Assembly (NCBI RefSeq): GCF_014200375.1
Contig: NZ_JACHBP010000001.1
Span: 1,798,001-1,862,000, forward strand
DNA from: Terrimesophilobacter mesophilus
Lineage (GTDB): Bacteria > Actinomycetota > Actinomycetes > Actinomycetales > Microbacteriaceae
DNA length: 64,000 nucleotides
Direction: 5' to 3'
This document shows, one piece after another, positions 4,728 to 11,622 of the stretch; position 1 is the stretch's first letter, and each line of letters starts with the position of its first letter. A program made the position numbers and the translations under genes. The notes under the pieces were generated by a model. It did no database searches and was not told where the DNA came from. It saw only the letters and a list, made by a program, of their open reading frames with translations.

Positions 4728-6212
4728 GTGAGTCCCGCAAAGCCATACGACGTCGTTCTCATCGGCGGTGGCATCATGAGTGCCACACTCGGTGCCATTC
4801 TCAAACAGGTCGAACCGGACTGGAGCATCCGACTCATCGAGGCGCTGCCGGAGTTGGCCCTCGAGAGCTCGAACCCATGGAACAACGCCGGAACCGGGCA
4901 CTCTGCGCTGTGCGAACTCAACTACACGAAGGACCTTCCCGACGGCACGGTCGACATTTCGAGCGCCGTGAAGATCAACGAGCAGTTCCAGGTCTCGCGG
5001 CAGTTCTGGTCGTACCTCGTCAAGAAGGACCTCCTGCCGGAGCCGGAGCAGTTCATCAACTCGGTTCCGCACATGAGCTTCGTGTGGGGCGACGACAATG
5101 TGGCTTTCCTCAAGCGACGTTTCGATGCGCTCAAGGTCCACCCGCTCTTCGCGGGAATGGAGTTCAGTGAAGACCCCGCTGTCATCCACTCCTGGGCGCC
5201 GACGCTCATGTCCGGCCGGCCGCGGGCGCAGCACTTCGCCGCGACGCGGATGGCGGCGGGAACCGATGTCGACTTCGGATCGCTCACACGCGACCTCGCC
5301 GCCTACCTTGCGAACCACGGCGCGGTCCTGAGCACCGACGAGAAGGTCACCGGGCTGTCGCGTGGCGACGATGGCGTCTGGACCATCCGCCTGCGCCGCA
5401 CGATCGGCAAGGCCACGAGCCGGCTGCGTTCTCGCTTCGTCTTCGTCGGCGCGGGTGGCGGTGCGCTGGGTCTCCTCCAGAGATCGGGGATCCCGGAAGC
5501 GCGGGGGTACGGAGGCTTCCCGGTGAGCGGCCAGTTCCTGCGCACCGACAATCCGAAGGTCGTGGCACGGCACAGGGCCAAGGTGTACGGCAAGGCGTCC
5601 GTCGGCGCTCCTCCCATGTCGGTGCCGCACCTGGACACGCGCATCATCGGTGGCACGGCGAGCCTCATGTTCGGGCCCTACGCGGGGTTCAGCCCGAAGT
5701 TCCTGAAGTCGGGTTCATGGCTCGACCTTCCGCTCTCGATCCGGCCGGGCAACATCATCCCGATGCTCGCCGCGTTCAAGGACAATCTCGATCTCTCCTG
5801 GTACCTCATCACGCAGTTGCTCGCGAGCAAGCGGACCAAGTTCGCGGCCCTTCGCGAGTTCATGCCGGATGCCCGCCCATCGGACTGGTACCTGATCACC
5901 GCCGGGCAGCGGGTCCAGGTGATCAAGAAGGATGCGAAGAAGGGCGGCATCCTTCAGTTCGGAACCGAAGTGGTGACCGGGGCGGACGGGACGATCGCCG
6001 GACTTCTGGGGGCATCCCCCGGCGCATCGACGGCAGTGCCGATCATGCTCGAGTTGATCGAGCGGTGCTTCCCCGACCGGGTCAAGGGCTGGACTCCCGC
6101 CCTGCGCGCGATGATCCCCACCTATGGCAAAGCACTTTCCGATTCACCGGCTCTCGCCGAGAAGACGCTCGGAGTCACTGCCCGTCAGCTCGACATCGCT
6201 CAAGGGGCTTAG
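4728..6212 (+). CDS. mqo: malate:quinone oxidoreductase
   Basis: FAD-dependent, membrane-associated malate dehydrogenase that passes electrons from malate to the quinone pool; in many actinobacteria it replaces or supplements the soluble enzyme. At 494 residues it is full length. The N-terminus carries the FAD-binding motif [15 protein letters not shown], followed by the family segment [39 protein letters not shown] and [14 protein letters not shown] are also characteristic. Start is GTG, consistent with a leaderless transcript. It seems to be a single-gene unit. Confidence 0.96.
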
Positions 6213-6226
6213 CCCCAATTCGGGGC
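6204..6226 (+). terminator. overlapping GC hairpins at the mqo 3' end
   Basis: GGGGC (6204-6208), GCCCC (6212-6216) and GGGGC (6222-6226) form two mutually exclusive small hairpins across the mqo stop codon. They may act as a weak terminator; no T-run follows. Confidence 0.4.
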
Positions 6227-6266
6227 ACAGAAAGCCACAGATCACGGGCTTCCGCGGGATATTGCT

Positions 6267-6327
6267 CCCAAGTTGGGGTACAAGTGTCGCACGTTCGATG
6301 CGATACTCGAGTCACGCGATACCCGAG
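6267..6327 (+). promoter_or_regulatory. control region of the kinase/regulator operon with inverted and direct repeats
   Basis: CCCAA-G-TTGGG at 6267-6277 is a perfect inverted repeat. Further on, GCGATACTCGAG (6300-6311) and GCGATACCCGAG (6316-6327) are tandem copies differing at one base with a 16-base period. Regularly spaced direct repeats just upstream of a two-component operon suggest autoregulatory sites, but this is inference. Confidence 0.45.
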
Positions 6328-6342
6328 CGGAAGTTATCTGAC

Positions 6343-7563
6343 GTGTCTATAGGATTGCCTGCCCACCTGGCACCGGACGTCGTCCGGCGATCCTTCGTCG
6401 CCGCCCAGCACACCGTGGCCGTCACCCTTCTTGCTGTGGCCATGTTCGCCGTGCTGGTCTTCCAGAGTGCGTTGCCTACTGCCACGTTGTGGCCGGCGCT
6501 CATCGCGCTCGTACCCGCAGTCGCGCTCCTCGTCATCCGCCGAAGCATCCGAACGATGCTGTGGATCATCTCCTACCTCGTCGTCGGCGGGGTCGGCATC
6601 CATCTCTATGCGGTCGTCCTCCTCGGCCAGTCGATTCCGGTCGAGAACACCGACGGGTTCTCCTTCCTTTCCGTGAAGGTCGCGCTCATCATGATCGGCG
6701 GTGCGGTTCTCGGGGTGTGGCCGGGGATCCTGTGCTCGATTGCCGGATATCTTGTCGCCGAGGTCGCCGTCGGAATCGCGAAGGTCGGCGCGGGGACACC
6801 GCTCAGCTTTGACCCCGCAGCGCTCGTGGCGCTTGTTGCGACGGTGATCGTCATCCCCCTCATCGGCATCGACAACGGCAGACAGATGTGGGCTCAGCCG
6901 CGCCTTCACCGTGCCGCCCAGGACGAAGAGGTCGCGCTGCTCCGCTACCGGATCGAGGTGAAGGCGGCGACCCTCATGCACGACACGGTTCTCAATCACC
7001 TCGCCGCCGTTGCCGATTCGAGCGGAGAGGATCTGGTTCCCGAACTGCGGAATCAGATTCGTGAGGATGTGGATTCGCTGGTCGGAGAGGGGTGGCTGAC
7101 AGAACCGGCGGATGCCGCCAATCATCGAAGCCGTCTCGAGTGGCAGCACAGCGGGCTGTTCACAGCCATCCAGGAGGGCCGCATGCTCGGTCTGGACATC
7201 GAGACGACCGGCGACCTCACCGCCGTGGGGCGCCTGGACCGAGACACCTCGATCGCCCTCGGACTCGCTGTCAAGCAGTGCCTCGTCAACGTGGTGAAGC
7301 ACTCGGGGACGAACCGTGCCGAGGTTGCAGTGTACGGTTCCGGTTCGATTCTCTCGGTCATGGTCGTCGACACCGGACGCGGATTCACCGAAGCCGCCAC
7401 CGGTGCCGACCGGCTCGGGCTGCGATCGTCCGTGCGCAAACGCATCGAGCTCGTGGGCGGGCAGGTGAGCGTCTGGTCCACCCCAGGGCGGGGAACCTCG
7501 ATCATGATCAGGGTGCCGGCGGCCGGATCGGAAGTCTTGTCCCAGGCGGGTGAGAACGGATGA
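6343..7563 (+). CDS. sensor histidine kinase, NarL-type, membrane-bound
   Basis: A 406-residue sensor kinase. Residues ~20-180 hold about five or six hydrophobic segments; the cytoplasmic part has a putative phosphoacceptor His213 in LMHDTVLNHL (HisKA_3-like HDxxxN), an N-box with Asn316 (QCLVNVVKH), a G1 box DTGRGF (343-348) and a G2 region LGLRSSVRKRIELVGGQVSVWSTPGRG. There is no obvious extracellular sensor domain, so the signal may be sensed in or at the membrane. The GTG at 6343 is chosen because it clears the mqo end; an in-frame ATG at 6298 would start inside the repeat region. The stop overlaps the next gene by four bases. The stimulus is unknown. Confidence 0.85.
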   Translation: MSIGLPAHLAPDVVRRSFVAAQHTVAVTLLAVAMFAVLVFQSALPTATLWPALIALVPAVALLVIRRSIRTMLWIISYLVVGGVGIHLYAVVLLGQSIPVENTDGFSFLSVKVALIMIGGAVLGVWPGILCSIAGYLVAEVAVGIAKVGAGTPLSFDPAALVALVATVIVIPLIGIDNGRQMWAQPRLHRAAQDEEVALLRYRIEVKAATLMHDTVLNHLAAVADSSGEDLVPELRNQIREDVDSLVGEGWLTEPADAANHRSRLEWQHSGLFTAIQEGRMLGLDIETTGDLTAVGRLDRDTSIALGLAVKQCLVNVVKHSGTNRAEVAVYGSGSILSVMVVDTGRGFTEAATGADRLGLRSSVRKRIELVGGQVSVWSTPGRGTSIMIRVPAAGSEVLSQAGENG

Positions 7564-8711
7564 GCACTCTGGAGCGAACCCGGCAACAACTCGACCCGGT
7601 CGGAACGCTGGGCAGCCGCCGTGTCGCCGTCGCCCTGGCCGGCGGAGCGTTCCTCTACGGCCTCGCGATGACGATCAGGTCATTCGGCCAGGTGAGCAAT
7701 CCCATGCTCGCGGTGCTGGCGCTCGCCTGGCTCGCCGCAGCGGCGATCACCGTCGCGATCGCGAGTTCGCCGAGCCGTGCCCCGTTCACCCGGTCATCCC
7801 ACACCGTCGTCCAGCTGCTCGCCCTCGGTTCGGTTGCACTCTCGGCGGCCAGTCAATGGGGGACGAACCGCTACATCCAGGATGATTTCGGTGCGGTCGC
7901 GCTCGGTCTGCTGATCCTGTCCATGGGCGTCTACCGACCGGCGACCGAACTCGCGACGGTCGGGGCGCTCGCCGCCATTTTCGTGGGATTCGTGACGCTG
8001 CTGCAGGTGCCAGGACTTGAGTCGTCGACTCCGCCCGTGTCGTTCGTTCTGGTGGGGATGACACCCATTCTCGCGCTCGCGTTCGGGGCCGCCAGCTACT
8101 CCGGCGGGCTGGTGTACTCCCTGGAGAGGTGGAACGAGCGTGTTCGCCGGTCGGTGGCACGACGTACCGATCGGATGCGGGACGGGATCGCCGAGTCGGT
8201 CAGGCAGGACAGGGTCATGATCCTCGGCCGGGATGTCCTGCCGTTCTTCAATTCGCTCCTCGAGCGCGACACGATTGGGCCGGATGACCGTGCGCGTGCG
8301 AGGGACATCGCCGAGTCGATCAGGGCGCTCATGGTGGCGGAAGCCGACCGCACCTGGCTCGAGGTCGTTGCGGGTGACGACGGACTCGCAGTCAGCGACG
8401 TGAAGGGATCCATTCTCGATGTCGACGGGCGCGCATCGTGGATGAGCATCGACCAGCGCACGGCGCTGCGTGCGCTGATCGTCGCGTTACTGGACGAACC
8501 ATCCTTCCTTCCTGGGTCGATGACGATCACGCTCGTCGGGTCGCCGACCACGAGCCGGGGGGTGATGACGGCCGCATTCGACCGGGAGGCGCACGACATC
8601 CGGACTGCGCTGGCGCCGTACTTCGCAGTCCTGCGAGTCGTCTTCGTCGGACTCGTCGTCGACTACCAGAATTCCACTCTGACGCTAAGGTTTTCTTATG
8701 AGCAGCGCTGA
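7560..8711 (+). CDS. membrane protein with degenerate histidine-kinase-like cytoplasmic half
   Basis: A 383-residue protein with about five membrane segments (residues ~20-180) and a soluble second half. The segment RVMILGRDVLPFFNSLLERD resembles the phosphoacceptor helix of the upstream kinase, but Arg224 stands where the histidine would be. The C-terminal ~120 residues retain the position of an ATPase domain but no N-box or glycine boxes. I infer a pseudokinase that pairs with the neighbouring active kinase. It overlaps the kinase by four bases and the response regulator by 14, which indicates fixed stoichiometry. The gene order and matched topology support this; the sequence similarity is weak. 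Confidence 0.65.
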   Translation: MSTLERTRQQLDPVGTLGSRRVAVALAGGAFLYGLAMTIRSFGQVSNPMLAVLALAWLAAAAITVAIASSPSRAPFTRSSHTVVQLLALGSVALSAASQWGTNRYIQDDFGAVALGLLILSMGVYRPATELATVGALAAIFVGFVTLLQVPGLESSTPPVSFVLVGMTPILALAFGAASYSGGLVYSLERWNERVRRSVARRTDRMRDGIAESVRQDRVMILGRDVLPFFNSLLERDTIGPDDRARARDIAESIRALMVAEADRTWLEVVAGDDGLAVSDVKGSILDVDGRASWMSIDQRTALRALIVALLDEPSFLPGSMTITLVGSPTTSRGVMTAAFDREAHDIRTALAPYFAVLRVVFVGLVVDYQNSTLTLRFSYEQR

Positions 8712-9387
8712 CCCGGGCATGCCTGCCACGCAGGTTGCTGCCGGCCATGCGCCGATCCGGCTTGCCATCCTCGACGACCACGAGGTACTGCTGGACACCC
8801 TCGGGAGCTGGATCTCCACGAATGCGCCGGACTTCGACCTGGTTCTCAGCGCGCAGACCTGGCTGGAGCTCGTGCACAGCGACCAGTTCCCGACAGAGCT
8901 GGTCTTCCTCGACTTCCAGCTCAGGGAGTCGGTATCGATCGAGGCGCGAGTGCGCACCTGCCGCGCGGCGGGAGCGAAGGTCATCGTCCTGAGCAGTCTT
9001 GACACGCGGGAGGCGCGCGAGCGGGCGAAGGCGGCCGGTGCATCCGACTTCCTCTCGAAGTCGCTTCCGATGCGCGAGGTCATGGATACCGCTCGGCGCG
9101 TCATGGGGATGAATATCGCCGACCACGGGCAGCGGGACTGGCGACCACTGCCGGCCGGCGCCGTCATCCAGGCACGCCCAAAACTCAGCCGTGGCGAGGA
9201 AGATGCCCTCCGGCTCTACGTCTCCGGTCTCAGCACGAACGAAGTGGCGGAGAATATGAGTGTGCAATATGAGACGGCGAAGACCTACCTTCGACGCGTG
9301 CGGGAGAAGTACGCGAAAGTGAACAGACCGGCCAGCAAGAAGGCGGACCTCATCCGCAGGGCGGCCGAGGACGGATATCTGGAATAG
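8698..9387 (+). CDS. LuxR/NarL-family response regulator
   Basis: Output protein of the upstream kinase pair (229 residues). The receiver domain has the acidic pair Asp26-Asp27 (ILDDHE), phospho-acceptor Asp72 (LVFLDFQ), the Ser in VIVLSS and Lys121 (FLSKS). The C-terminal ~65 residues form a LuxR-type HTH (LSRGEEDALRLYVSGLSTNEVA), with the recognition helix in ENMSVQYETAKTYLRRV. The ATG overlaps the pseudokinase gene by 14 bases; the alternative would need a much shorter receiver. Targets are unknown; the repeats before the operon are candidates for autoregulation. Confidence 0.9.
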   Translation: MSSADPGMPATQVAAGHAPIRLAILDDHEVLLDTLGSWISTNAPDFDLVLSAQTWLELVHSDQFPTELVFLDFQLRESVSIEARVRTCRAAGAKVIVLSSLDTREARERAKAAGASDFLSKSLPMREVMDTARRVMGMNIADHGQRDWRPLPAGAVIQARPKLSRGEEDALRLYVSGLSTNEVAENMSVQYETAKTYLRRVREKYAKVNRPASKKADLIRRAAEDGYLE

Positions 9388-10064
9388 TGGCGAAGCTGTA
9401 CTTTCGTTATGGGGCGATGAACAGCGGCAAGAGCACGAACATGCTCCAGGCCGCATACAACTATGAGGAGCGCGGCCAGCAGGTGCTCCTCGCGAAGCCC
9501 CGGATCGACACGAAGGGCGACTCCGACATCGTGTCGCGGCTCGGCGTTCGGCGACCAGTCGACTTCGTGATCGCGCCGGAGGACGACCTCTGGGAGCTGT
9601 TCGCCGCCGAGCGGGCGAAGCTCGAGGAGGCGACCGGGAAGCCGCTCAACTGCCTGCTCGTCGATGAGGCGCAGTTCCTCACCGAGACCCAGGTGGATGA
9701 CCTGCTGCGCATCGCGATCCTCGCGGATGTCCCGGTGCTGGCGTACGGCATCCGCACCGACTTCCAGACGGTCGCCTTTCCCGGCAGCAGGAGGCTGCTC
9801 GAGATCGCGCACTCGCTCGAGGAGCTCAAGACGATCTGCCGCTGCGGCCGCAAGGCGGTGTTCAACACGCGCACCGTGGGCGGGCAGTACATCTTCGACG
9901 GCGACCAGGTGGCGATCGAGGACGGCGTGGATGTCGTGTACGAGTCGCTCTGCGGCGCGTGCTATCTCGAGGAGAGCGGTGGTGTCTTCAATCGCGGCCG
10001 TCGCGTGCTCGTCGAGCCTCTCGGCACCGTCTACAACTCGGCTCCGGACCCGGATTTCACGTAG
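9387..10064 (+). CDS. tdk: thymidine kinase
   Basis: Phosphorylates thymidine in the salvage pathway. The 225 residues show the P-loop GAMNSGKSTNML, a second nucleotide motif LLVDEAQFL, an F-rich feedback/substrate segment (YGIRTDFQTVAFPGSRRLLEIA) and a zinc-binding lasso region with CRCGRKAVFN and CGACY. Start GTG shares one base with the stop of the response regulator gene, so it is probably in the same transcript. Family length and motifs are normal. Confidence 0.95.
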   Translation: MAKLYFRYGAMNSGKSTNMLQAAYNYEERGQQVLLAKPRIDTKGDSDIVSRLGVRRPVDFVIAPEDDLWELFAAERAKLEEATGKPLNCLLVDEAQFLTETQVDDLLRIAILADVPVLAYGIRTDFQTVAFPGSRRLLEIAHSLEELKTICRCGRKAVFNTRTVGGQYIFDGDQVAIEDGVDVVYESLCGACYLEESGGVFNRGRRVLVEPLGTVYNSAPDPDFT

Positions 10065-10098: not shown

Positions 10099-11448
10099 CT
10101 ATTTCGGCCGATCAGCTGGGTGACGGCGACGGACGGTGACGGCTGCGGCACCGGTCAGGAGCAACAGCCAGGCCAGGCCGGCGAGTCCTGAGGTGTCTGC
10201 TCCGGTAGCGGCAAGTTCTGTCTGCACCGTCCAGCCGGCGACAAGCGTCGTCGGTGCCGTGATCGGCGTGGCGAAGTTCCACAAGGCTCCGGATGTCGTG
10301 CCCAGGTGCCACCCCGTGAACTCATATCCGCCTCTGGTGGGCGCCGGAGGCTCAGTTGCCGCGTCGCCGTCGTCGACGATCTGGTCGGCGACGAGGCTGC
10401 CGGAGGCGCTGTCGAAGCCGACCAGGAAGTGGAACACGATGGTGACGGTTCCGCCCGAGGAGGCTGGAATGTAGCCGTCGGCGGCCGTCGCGGTGTAGCT
10501 CACTCCGGGCGGCGTCACCGAACTGCTCAGCGTCGCGGCCATGCCTCCTCCGATTCCGAACGCGACGCCGTCGCCGGCGCTCGTCGCGGATCCGAGTGTC
10601 GCCGTCGCCTGGACATCGATACCGGTTCCACCGGAGCCGCCTGCAGAACCGCCTGGAGGGCCGCCACTGCCGGCGCCCCCGCCGCCGATGCCGCTTCCAC
10701 TGCCGTCGTAAGTGCCGAAGTCGCCGTCGCCGCCTGTCGCGGTGACCGTGCCGCCGGTGATCGTGACGCTGCCGCCTGCGCCGCCGTCGCTTCCACCCCC
10801 ACCTCCGCCGATGCCGCTGCCGCCTCCGCCGAGGTAGCCGCCGGCCCCGACTGCTGTGACAGTGCCGCCGGTGATCGTGACGTTCCCGCCGCCGCCGCCA
10901 GGGGCATAGATCGAGGTCGAGGCGTTACCCCCTCCGCCGATGCCGCTTCCGCCGCCGCCGCCGCCGAGGCGGCTCCGGCCGCCGTGCGCGAAGACTGTGC
11001 CGCCGGTGATCGTGACACTGCCGCTGCTGGAGAGGTCGTCGCCGTTGAGGCCGATCCCGCTTCCGCCGCCGCCGCTGCCGAGACCGTCACTGCCGCCGGT
11101 GGCGAAGAGGCTGCCGCCGCCTGTGGCCTGAATCGTCAGATGCGCCGTTGCCGGTACGTGGATGCCCGCATATCCTGGGCCGAGGCTCTCGATCGTCAAG
11201 GTGTGGCCGTTGAGGTCCAGGACGAGCGTGCTGCCCGGCGCGACCGCGAGTCCCGCCCCGCCCGTGTCTGCGGTGATATCGGCGCCGAGAGCGACGATGT
11301 CGCTTGACGACGCCGTGGCCATGGCAGCCTGCAATTGCGCCCAGGTGTTGGGCGTGAGGGTGACGGCATCAGCGGGAGATACCCCGGCGACGATGCTCAA
11401 CGGAATCGCGAGTGCGACCGAGGCGAACAGTACGAGGAGACGAGTCAT
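10099..11448 (-). CDS. glycine-rich secreted surface protein with LAATG (sortase E-type) anchor
   Basis: A 449-residue exported protein. A signal peptide (MTRLLVLFASVALAIPLSIVAG) is followed by a domain resembling right-handed beta-helix passengers (SSDIVALGADITADTG, LVLDLNGHTLTI), three glycine-rich repeats each centred on VTITGGTV, and a ~70-residue InlB B-repeat-like (Flg_new) domain with FTGWHLGTTSGALWNF and VAGWT. The C-terminus carries LAATGADTS, a hydrophobic helix and RRRHPADRPK, the layout of a sortase substrate; LAXTG is the signal known for class E sortases of actinobacteria. No sortase gene is in the window. The ATG at 11448 starts the signal peptide. The role is probably adhesion or envelope structure, by inference. 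Confidence 0.8.
   Translation of the reverse strand: MTRLLVLFASVALAIPLSIVAGVSPADAVTLTPNTWAQLQAAMATASSSDIVALGADITADTGGAGLAVAPGSTLVLDLNGHTLTIESLGPGYAGIHVPATAHLTIQATGGGSLFATGGSDGLGSGGGGSGIGLNGDDLSSSGSVTITGGTVFAHGGRSRLGGGGGGSGIGGGGNASTSIYAPGGGGGNVTITGGTVTAVGAGGYLGGGGSGIGGGGGGSDGGAGGSVTITGGTVTATGGDGDFGTYDGSGSGIGGGGAGSGGPPGGSAGGSGGTGIDVQATATLGSATSAGDGVAFGIGGGMAATLSSSVTPPGVSYTATAADGYIPASSGGTVTIVFHFLVGFDSASGSLVADQIVDDGDAATEPPAPTRGGYEFTGWHLGTTSGALWNFATPITAPTTLVAGWTVQTELAATGADTSGLAGLAWLLLLTGAAAVTVRRRHPADRPK
10660..11100 (-). repeat. degenerate glycine-codon tandem repeats in the surface-protein gene
   Basis: A 20-base block is repeated identically at 10748-10767, 10862-10881 and 10997-11016 (encoding part of VTITGGTV), separated by variable Gly/Ser-rich stretches of CCGCC-type triplets. 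Unit lengths differ (114 and 135 bases), so this is a candidate for repeat-number variation. Confidence 0.75.
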
Positions 11449-11499
11449 GGGTCTTTGCCTTCGACAGGTGTGCCTCGCCGTGGGCCGACTCGGTGCGTC

Positions 11500-11529
11500 A
11501 CTGTAGCACGGGTGAAATCGGTCCCACAA
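11500..11529 (-). promoter_or_regulatory. promoter of the glycine-rich surface protein
   Basis: Read on the minus strand, TTGTGG (11529-11524) and TACAGT (11505-11500) are separated by 18 bases and lie about 50 bases before the ATG, a reasonable sigma-70-type promoter. Confidence 0.5.
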
Positions 11530-11622
11530 GAGACGTTGGAGCCGCCCGAAACGGTGACGCAATAACACGCAGTGCTGGTCGGATCGATCCTGAAGTCCCC
11601 TTCGCCCCATCGGGGTAAACCA

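Follow-up and report, generated by a model that had tools for sequence, protein, structure and literature searches.

Within a stretch of 64,000 nucleotides from Terrimesophilobacter mesophilus (Microbacteriaceae; contig NZ_JACHBP010000001.1, positions 1,798,001 to 1,862,000), hereafter referred to as the window, three genes follow one another head to tail on the forward strand at window positions 6343-9387 and form an operon encoding, in order, a sensor histidine kinase (HK), a histidine-kinase-like membrane protein that is predicted to be catalytically dead (pseudokinase, PK) and a response regulator (RR). The features of the locus are collected in Table 1. The overlap between the kinase gene and the second gene, to which a preliminary description of this DNA had drawn attention, amounts to four bases, and the second and third reading frames overlap by 14 bases.

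Table 1. Features of the HK-PK-RR operon and its surroundings (window positions).
Feature	Position	Strand	Details
HK gene	6343-7563	+	GTG start, 406 amino acids; six-helix sensor histidine kinase, catalytic boxes intact
Phosphoacceptor His213 codon of HK	6979-6981	+	His in 161/166 relatives
PK gene	7560-8711	+	ATG start, 383 amino acids; histidine-kinase-like membrane protein, catalytically dead as predicted from its motifs
Arg224 codon of PK	8229-8231	+	at the acceptor position or one residue after it; alignment, register uncertain by one
Degenerate CA (ATPase-fold) domain of PK, residues 265-383	8352-8708	+	no G box; model, structure match, motif count
RR gene	8698-9387	+	ATG start, 229 amino acids; LuxR-type response regulator
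Distal GGGGNACA box (CGGGGCACA)	6221-6229	+	probable response-regulator site; box in 95/124 upstream regions
Proximal GGGGNACA box (TGGGGTACA)	6274-6282	+	53 bases from distal box; spacing in relatives
-10-like GATACT	6302-6307	+	19 bases after proximal box; sequence, and NATANT spacing in relatives
Malate:quinone oxidoreductase gene	4728-6212	+	upstream neighbour (context only); matched in 64/74 named relatives' loci
Thymidine kinase gene	9387-10064	+	downstream neighbour (context only); matched in 73/74 named relatives' loci

The outer members of the operon are, judging by their sequences, intact, with an acceptor histidine and N and G boxes in HK and a receiver aspartate and LuxR-type helix-turn-helix in RR. 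HK is a DesK/NarL-type histidine kinase whose ATPase domain is detected by Pfam, and the earlier claim of an intact NarL-type kinase proved correct: the histidine stands at residue 213, and the N and DxGxG boxes (N316, H320, D343-x-G345-x-G347-F348) are present and nearly invariant among relatives. In a set of 166 non-identical HK-PK pairs, derived from 218 places by way of 214 pairs that passed adjacency and length rules, Asn316 is kept in 165/166 HKs and DxGxG in 166/166. The structural model of HK (predicted local distance difference test, pLDDT, 87.7) has helices at residues 7-43, 50-68, 72-95, 102-121, 125-150 and 158-225, the last and long one entering the DHp (dimerization and histidine phosphotransfer) domain. 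The third gene likewise encodes a LuxR-type regulator, as had been proposed; Response_reg and GerE both score above the Pfam cut-off, Asp72 and Lys121 are present in 41/41 rows, and the recognition region is almost invariant.

The second protein reaches no Pfam cut-off (best PrgI, 13.1 of 27 bits) and no NCBIfam family; MctS/MctR, among the best NCBIfam neighbours, fall far below their cut-offs. In its AlphaFold2 model, based on 53 sequences (pLDDT 88.5), a six-helix membrane half (helices 13-40, 48-68, 78-98, 111-121, 128-152 and 159-236) is followed by a DHp-like hairpin into which the long sixth helix continues (to residue 236, then 241-262), and the last domain has the core order helix-strand-strand-helix-strand-strand. 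The matching topology of HK and PK that had been read from the sequence is confirmed by models computed separately for the two proteins, in both of which five helices precede a long one that enters DHp. A soluble half without a kinase-like fold would have spoken against the pseudokinase proposal, and a kinase-like fold was found. Compared with the CA (catalytic and ATP-binding) domains of solved histidine kinases, PK residues 265-383 best match 5epv_D over 112 residues (root-mean-square deviation, rmsd, 2.9) with a Z score of 10.8, in a comparison where models without relatives reach Z 7-8. Residues 184-383 match DesK 5iul_A over 188 residues (Z 10.1) at an rmsd of 8.4, and the domain arrangement therefore differs. 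Histidine-kinase or related ATPase-fold proteins make up 48 of the 50 rows listed, the other two matching only the membrane half, and Foldseek with PK gave a single match at E below 0.001, a bacteriophytochrome.

The catalytic residues are gone from this fold. DxGxG occurs in the CA region of 0/166 PK relatives, in agreement with the absence of a G box reported previously. The proposal that Arg224 replaces the acceptor histidine was right about the position, but the arginine is not conserved (R 94 and H 3 of 166, otherwise A, E, Q, S, D and others) and the register is uncertain by one residue, the profile alignment pairing HK His213 with PK Gly223, one residue before Arg224, where His occurs in 1/166. 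A profile comparison of PK with HK (76.9%, E 2e-5, 285 columns including the membrane half) fits an old duplication of the kinase gene. PK is thus best described as a pseudokinase, in which the kinase fold is present and the catalytic residues are lost, with the term dead resting on sequence and model. A phosphate relay through PK is very unlikely, the acceptor histidine not being conserved, and no HPt domain is seen at the C terminus, the CA fold extending to the last residue, 383.

A hidden enzymatic role of PK, for example as a phosphatase of phosphorylated RR, is a further reading that deserves mention. DesK-family kinases carry the Gln of their phosphatase motif at the position matching HK residue 218, and this residue is mostly Asn, Ser or Gly in HKs (22, 22 and 7 of 54), so that another phosphatase would be useful. 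The reported autophosphorylation of RcsD, which lacks the conserved histidine (PMC3762810), points in the same direction. Against such a role, no PK column holds His in more than 59/166 relatives, the only columns at 20% or above being residue 81 in a membrane helix (59/166) and the last residue (46/166), and DxGxG is absent; we regard it as very improbable.

For the comparisons that follow, the present operon is called type I, and three further HK-PK pairs found in the same genome (2.4 Mb) are called types II, III and IV, their proteins being numbered accordingly. At an E value of 0.001 or better against this PK, related genes (most of them of types I and II, with some weak ones of type III) are present in 168/299 Microbacteriaceae genomes, representing 50/85 genera. 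Among the 218 places, which still include many repeats of one place and which remained after 22/240 loci had been left out (ten re-fetched copies and twelve from an order search), HK precedes PK at 217, while RR lies directly downstream at 171 and upstream at 4; at the other 43, a few of which are truncated regions, no RR was found nearby. At the single place without HK, L194, the larger region L259 holds HK in two overlapping frames. HK and PK are therefore the unit that is kept, given that HK is found at 217/218 places and RR directly downstream at 171. The canonical two-component system of one kinase and one regulator does not describe such loci, where PK stands beside HK at all places but one.

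All three genes occur together, under a fixed distance rule, in 72/74 named relatives, which belong to Microbacteriaceae (Cryobacterium, Homoserinimonas, Frigoribacterium, Salinibacterium, Frondihabitans, Curtobacterium, Glaciihabitans and others) or are unclassified actinobacterial metagenome bins. Salinibacterium amurskyense (locus L106) is one of the species with the complete trio. As for the two exceptions, L114 ends at a contig end after PK, and L122 has all three genes with an HK frame that runs on. This frequency makes a chance grouping untenable, and the preliminary description, which was prepared to give up the system if the trio was not conserved, holds on this point.

A stricter view of the pairing comes from 100 Microbacteriaceae genomes, in which 142 matches to the HK family (types I-III) reached E 1e-30 or better and 141/142 have a PK behind them; the partner is thus fixed more strictly than could be told from the sequence alone. 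The 142nd match, in G090, is a deletion remnant: HK breaks off inside the DHp domain and continues in frame into RR, and neither the HK ATPase domain nor PK remains. This deletion fusion (L293, G090:C5:228000-236000) adjoins a natural HK4-PK4 fusion. It should be noted that paired kinases of types I and II went into the HK profile; it also detected type III kinases, which were not part of it, and these proved to be paired too. In the PK search, rows from E 1.2e-25 upwards were left out except a G104 half; by position, these were type III genes also in the PK3 search, apart from G107, where the row was a second fragment of a type I gene, and G014, where it was a type IV gene. Rows of the PK3 search were left out from E 7.8e-15 upwards; they were mostly type I genes and type III pieces, and also included a type IV gene in G065 and two weak matches in G072 and G094. 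Two PK rows without a partner each represent the second part of a gene that is paired through its other part, and type IV pairs are outside the count.

PK is under selection, like HK, the dN/dS ratios of the two being comparable in 11/11 independent pairs of related loci (PK 0.07-0.24, HK 0.095-0.21) and that of RR lower (0-0.11). Twelve PK positions are kept in 90% or more of the relatives, among them Asp12, Pro13, Pro228, Ala247, Arg255, Trp266, Leu267, Asp287 and Arg300, and one Pro is invariant (166/166). The loss of the kinase motifs could in principle mark PK as a decaying, functionless duplicate of HK, but the dN/dS ratios, the conserved positions and the presence of PK-related genes in more than half of the family genomes searched all run counter to decay, which is in effect refuted by the ratios together with the 141/142 pairing.

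The other pairs of this genome display the same association. The type II pair lies at G000:C1 2.072-2.074 Mb, and no RR turned up in the 14 kb examined. Type III is an HK3-PK3-RR3 trio at about 2.237-2.240 Mb, present in 12/12 regions looked at, in which HK3 has the histidine and PK3 does not; a second LuxR-type regulator of the same kind is encoded upstream of it (L241, G000:C1:2234000-2243000, minus strand, reverse coordinates 1272-2108). Type IV, at about 0.951-0.954 Mb, has the order RR4-HK4-PK4, which is the same in 11/11 fetched regions, and PK4 is found in 72/100 family genomes. The acceptor histidine is present in 20/20 HK4 and 0/20 PK4 sequences, nine regions from outside the family included, and the Pro invariant in PK is also found in 20/20 PK4 and is absent from PK3. 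Profile comparisons relate PK to PK3 (99.4%, E 5e-21) and to PK4 (97.7%, E 1.7e-12), in both cases more strongly than to HK. In two complete frames HK4 and PK4 form one protein, of 981 amino acids in L293 and 862 in L257, and in L258 and L259 a similar HK4-PK4 frame reaches the end of the fetched region.

These loci bear on an alternative in which PK acts on RR in the manner of DivL, its DHp hairpin docking RR or phosphorylated RR and feeding the state back to the kinase, or titrating RR. The DHp hairpin is the usual docking site of response regulators, and several of the most conserved PK residues (P228, A247, R255) lie there. DivL itself is a pseudokinase reported to bind phosphorylated DivK (PMC4211667). 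We nevertheless consider this unlikely, as PK stays by HK where no RR was found nearby (43/218 places, and likewise in the type II pair), and the natural fusions join PK to HK, not to RR.

The taxonomic range is narrower than expected for the trio and wider for its type IV relative. Searched against the order, the PK profile matched 12/248 genomes, ten of them in Microbacteriaceae (one, G471, weakly at E 6e-5); the two matches outside the family (G058, G480), the only candidates for types I-II there, were unrelated proteins. The type I trio was found in 0/23 genomes of other families of the order, and the PK3 profile matched 7/296 genomes of the class, all in the family. The co-occurrence across Micrococcales that had been proposed as a check was hence not borne out, the trio having been found only in Microbacteriaceae. 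Type IV matched 34/296 genomes of the class, including 20 that lie outside the family (ten with E below 1e-20 and ten weak). In the regions fetched for nine of these ten strong matches, HK4 stands directly before PK4 in 9/9, with RR4 before both in six.

A separate observation concerns the gap behind the type IV PK gene, where a hairpin of 15 pairs is strongly conserved in five genera (L308, G000:C1:946000-957000; core at G000:C1:951070-951098 on the minus strand). Its exact core pattern occurs once each in 19/100 family genomes, always on the strand of PK4 and about 0.15-1.1 kb behind it; fold z scores are -6.7 and -8.4 for the two strands, and no Rfam match was obtained in five loci. The hairpin could represent a small RNA or a regulatory element and brings to mind FasX, which lies next to fasBCA.

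Upstream of the type I operon, 124 of 171 regions were distinct and long enough for comparison. The pattern GGGG[TCG]ACA, usually with a C before it, is found in 95 of these 200-base regions and at least twice in 66. Box density is 6.8 per kb upstream, compared with 0.14 per kb after shuffling of the upstream DNA and 0.017 per kb in the coding DNA for HK and PK at these loci. Neighbouring boxes lie 53-55 bases apart in 36 pairs, which is about five helical turns, and NATANT follows the last plus-strand box within 40 bases in 53/92 regions, always at 17-20 bases and 41 times at 19. Six of the 44 pair loci that lack a downstream RR carry a box copy; two of the six are repeats, and a third is a type I locus truncated by a contig end. 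Type III loci have none (0/6). RR presumably binds the GGGGNACA boxes before its operon.

The boxes point to a local circuit. Single boxes are not enriched in this genome (59, versus 59 in the reversed control), with eight in the window versus 2.9 expected; paired boxes occur in 20/60 genomes versus 6/60 in the reversed control, and in this genome once, at this operon, with none in the control. No common target gene was found at the other paired-box places in the 60 genomes. Because single boxes are unenriched and the other paired places have no target in common, only self-control of the operon, and no wider RR regulon, is predicted. Boxes of the same pattern, three or more together, also stand 198-532 bases behind PK4 in 5/11 type IV loci (L308-L312), which suggests a possible connection between the type I regulator and the element behind type IV. 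Paired GGGGNACA boxes likewise precede two related proteins with signal-peptide-like starts in L271 and L287 (both G084).

Taken as a whole, we consider it likely that HK and PK, as two subunits, make up a single membrane sensor with PK gating HK, that RR is phosphorylated and that the operon regulates itself. Control of the live kinase by its dead twin is probable because the pair is almost never apart in relatives and three more such pairs exist in this genome. PK would be an old kinase paralogue that lost the acceptor histidine and ATP-site boxes and kept the six-helix half, DHp hairpin and CA fold. It would join HK, most simply DHp hairpin to DHp hairpin or as dimer beside dimer, adding a second and different six-helix sensing half, and would set whether HK autophosphorylates on His213; with no ATP-site boxes and no histidine in PK, shape is what would most easily be passed on. 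We lean towards PK restraining HK until a membrane signal arrives, the sign of control being a guess. HK would then phosphorylate Asp72 of RR, and RR would bind the GGGGNACA boxes, closing a circuit that regulates itself. The HK-PK contact, the direction of control, the signal and the binding of RR to the boxes are the parts of this mechanism that we infer.

Several observations weigh against this mechanism. Direct-coupling analysis of the 166 pairs (low-rank Gaussian, 776 columns, effective number 134, with intra- and inter-protein scores alike in size) placed 12 DHp-DHp couplings in the top 400 versus 8.6 expected, which is no significant enrichment (P 0.16). Couplings of the HK CA domain with the PK membrane half, the single block to exceed expectation, numbered 100 versus 73 expected (uncorrected P 0.001), a result with no simple structural meaning. 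Near the expected helix diagonal, five couplings were found versus 1.7 expected, with 0-3 in shifted controls. HK itself lacks the acceptor histidine in 5/166 pairs (three Asn from one genus, one Arg and one Gly). These copies (L185, L190 and L197 from the one genus, plus L023 and L029) have PKs that lack it too, so that some HK-PK pairs seem to have drifted away from phosphotransfer altogether; in the genus with Asn, no type I RR was seen nearby in five genomes, and a type IV-like system lies next door in three. Furthermore, operon proximity and fusion suggest contact without proving it, and the fusions are of type IV, not type I. RcsD was reported to autophosphorylate without the conserved histidine (PMC3762810), and loss of motifs is therefore no proof that PK is inactive.

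The comparison with RcsC and RcsD, an analogous live/dead pair, touches the form of the complex. Both are reported to be homodimers, a 1:1 heterodimer being unlikely, and their structures argue for homodimers meeting as a tetramer (preprint PMC13317618). This favours an alternative in which PK is a separate, homodimeric membrane accessory resembling LiaF or RcsD, making dimer-to-dimer contact with HK, its kinase-like half a scaffold and its membrane half the sensor. In the models only three residues separate strand 340 and helix 344 in the lid region of PK, compared with the 14 between strand 343 and helix 358 in HK, and the missing G box fits a scaffold as well. Conversely, two-hybrid assays of FasB and FasC reported heterodimers and no homodimers (PMC12675982). 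The type IV HK-PK fusions also fit a heterodimer at least as well, and we judge the accessory to be distinctly unlikely, keeping the gated two-subunit sensor as the preferred reading.

No description of the HK-PK family was found in the open-access literature searched by titles and starts of abstracts, which is weak evidence of absence. In LiaF-LiaS-LiaR systems a membrane accessory, a DesK-type kinase and a LuxR-type regulator share one operon, as here, but LiaF is not known to be kinase-like, whereas the PK model has DHp and CA folds. DivL of Caulobacter resembles PK in being a pseudo-histidine kinase that steers a live kinase, CckA, beside which it is not known to be encoded. DivL has PAS domains and reads phosphorylated DivK according to the published account (PMC4211667), while PK is a six-helix membrane protein encoded beside its kinase. 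RcsC/RcsD/RcsB also combines a live kinase, a partner with an inactive kinase domain and a regulator, but RcsD is reported to carry ABL and HPt domains and to pass phosphate on (PMC13317618), and PK, with 383 amino acids, ends with the CA fold. A ChrS pseudokinase variant acting with HrrS in Corynebacterium glutamicum provides a dead kinase that forms heterodimers in two-hybrid assays and raises output; it is reported as a frameshift mutant from laboratory evolution (PMC9491836) and not a natural fixed partner like PK.

The closest named system is FasBCA(X) of group A Streptococcus, which likewise has two adjacent six-helix kinase-like proteins and one response regulator; FasB and FasC form heterodimers by two-hybrid assay, and FasC was proposed by its authors to be a pseudokinase (PMC12675982). 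In the model reported there, FasC keeps the phosphoacceptor His246 and is phosphorylated by FasB (PMC12675982), whereas the PK acceptor column holds His in 3/166. PK is unlikely to play the part of FasC, because it has no acceptor histidine and no histidine conserved in the DHp or CA region, and the four parallel pairs in one genome are a further difference. The trio thus works most like FasBC and is not filed as FasBCA, RcsCDB, LiaFSR or DivL; the first three labels are withheld because the defining features tested (a supplied histidine, an HPt domain, an accessory without the fold) are absent. The view that the system is not a recognised named one is upheld insofar as none of the systems compared fits, and is qualified by the partial precedent of FasBCA.

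The neighbourhood between the malate:quinone oxidoreductase and thymidine kinase genes is old, because the fetched loci of most named relatives hold the two flanking genes (Table 1). Farther downstream, at window positions 10099-11610 on the minus strand, lies a gene for a glycine-rich protein with a List_Bact_rpt (Flg_new) repeat; its C-terminal end combines a hydrophobic stretch with a basic tail, and it may be a surface protein.

In eukaryotes, regulation by pseudokinases has been studied thoroughly, but the bacterial histidine pseudokinases found in our literature search amount to a few individual cases. On balance, and with some reserve, we favour the broader proposal that Actinobacteria use a lineage of obligate live-plus-dead sensor kinases, types I-IV, with one type extending outside the family and some pairs fused, in which the dead half is a built-in regulator. 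If true, these would be the bacterial equivalent of the kinase-pseudokinase receptor pairs of eukaryotes. With four pairs in this one genome, no Pfam match and a live kinase that hardly ever occurs without its dead partner, the family would offer a direct test system for pseudokinase control of a histidine kinase, and it suggests that one subunit of many actinobacterial sensors goes unrecognised in genome annotation.

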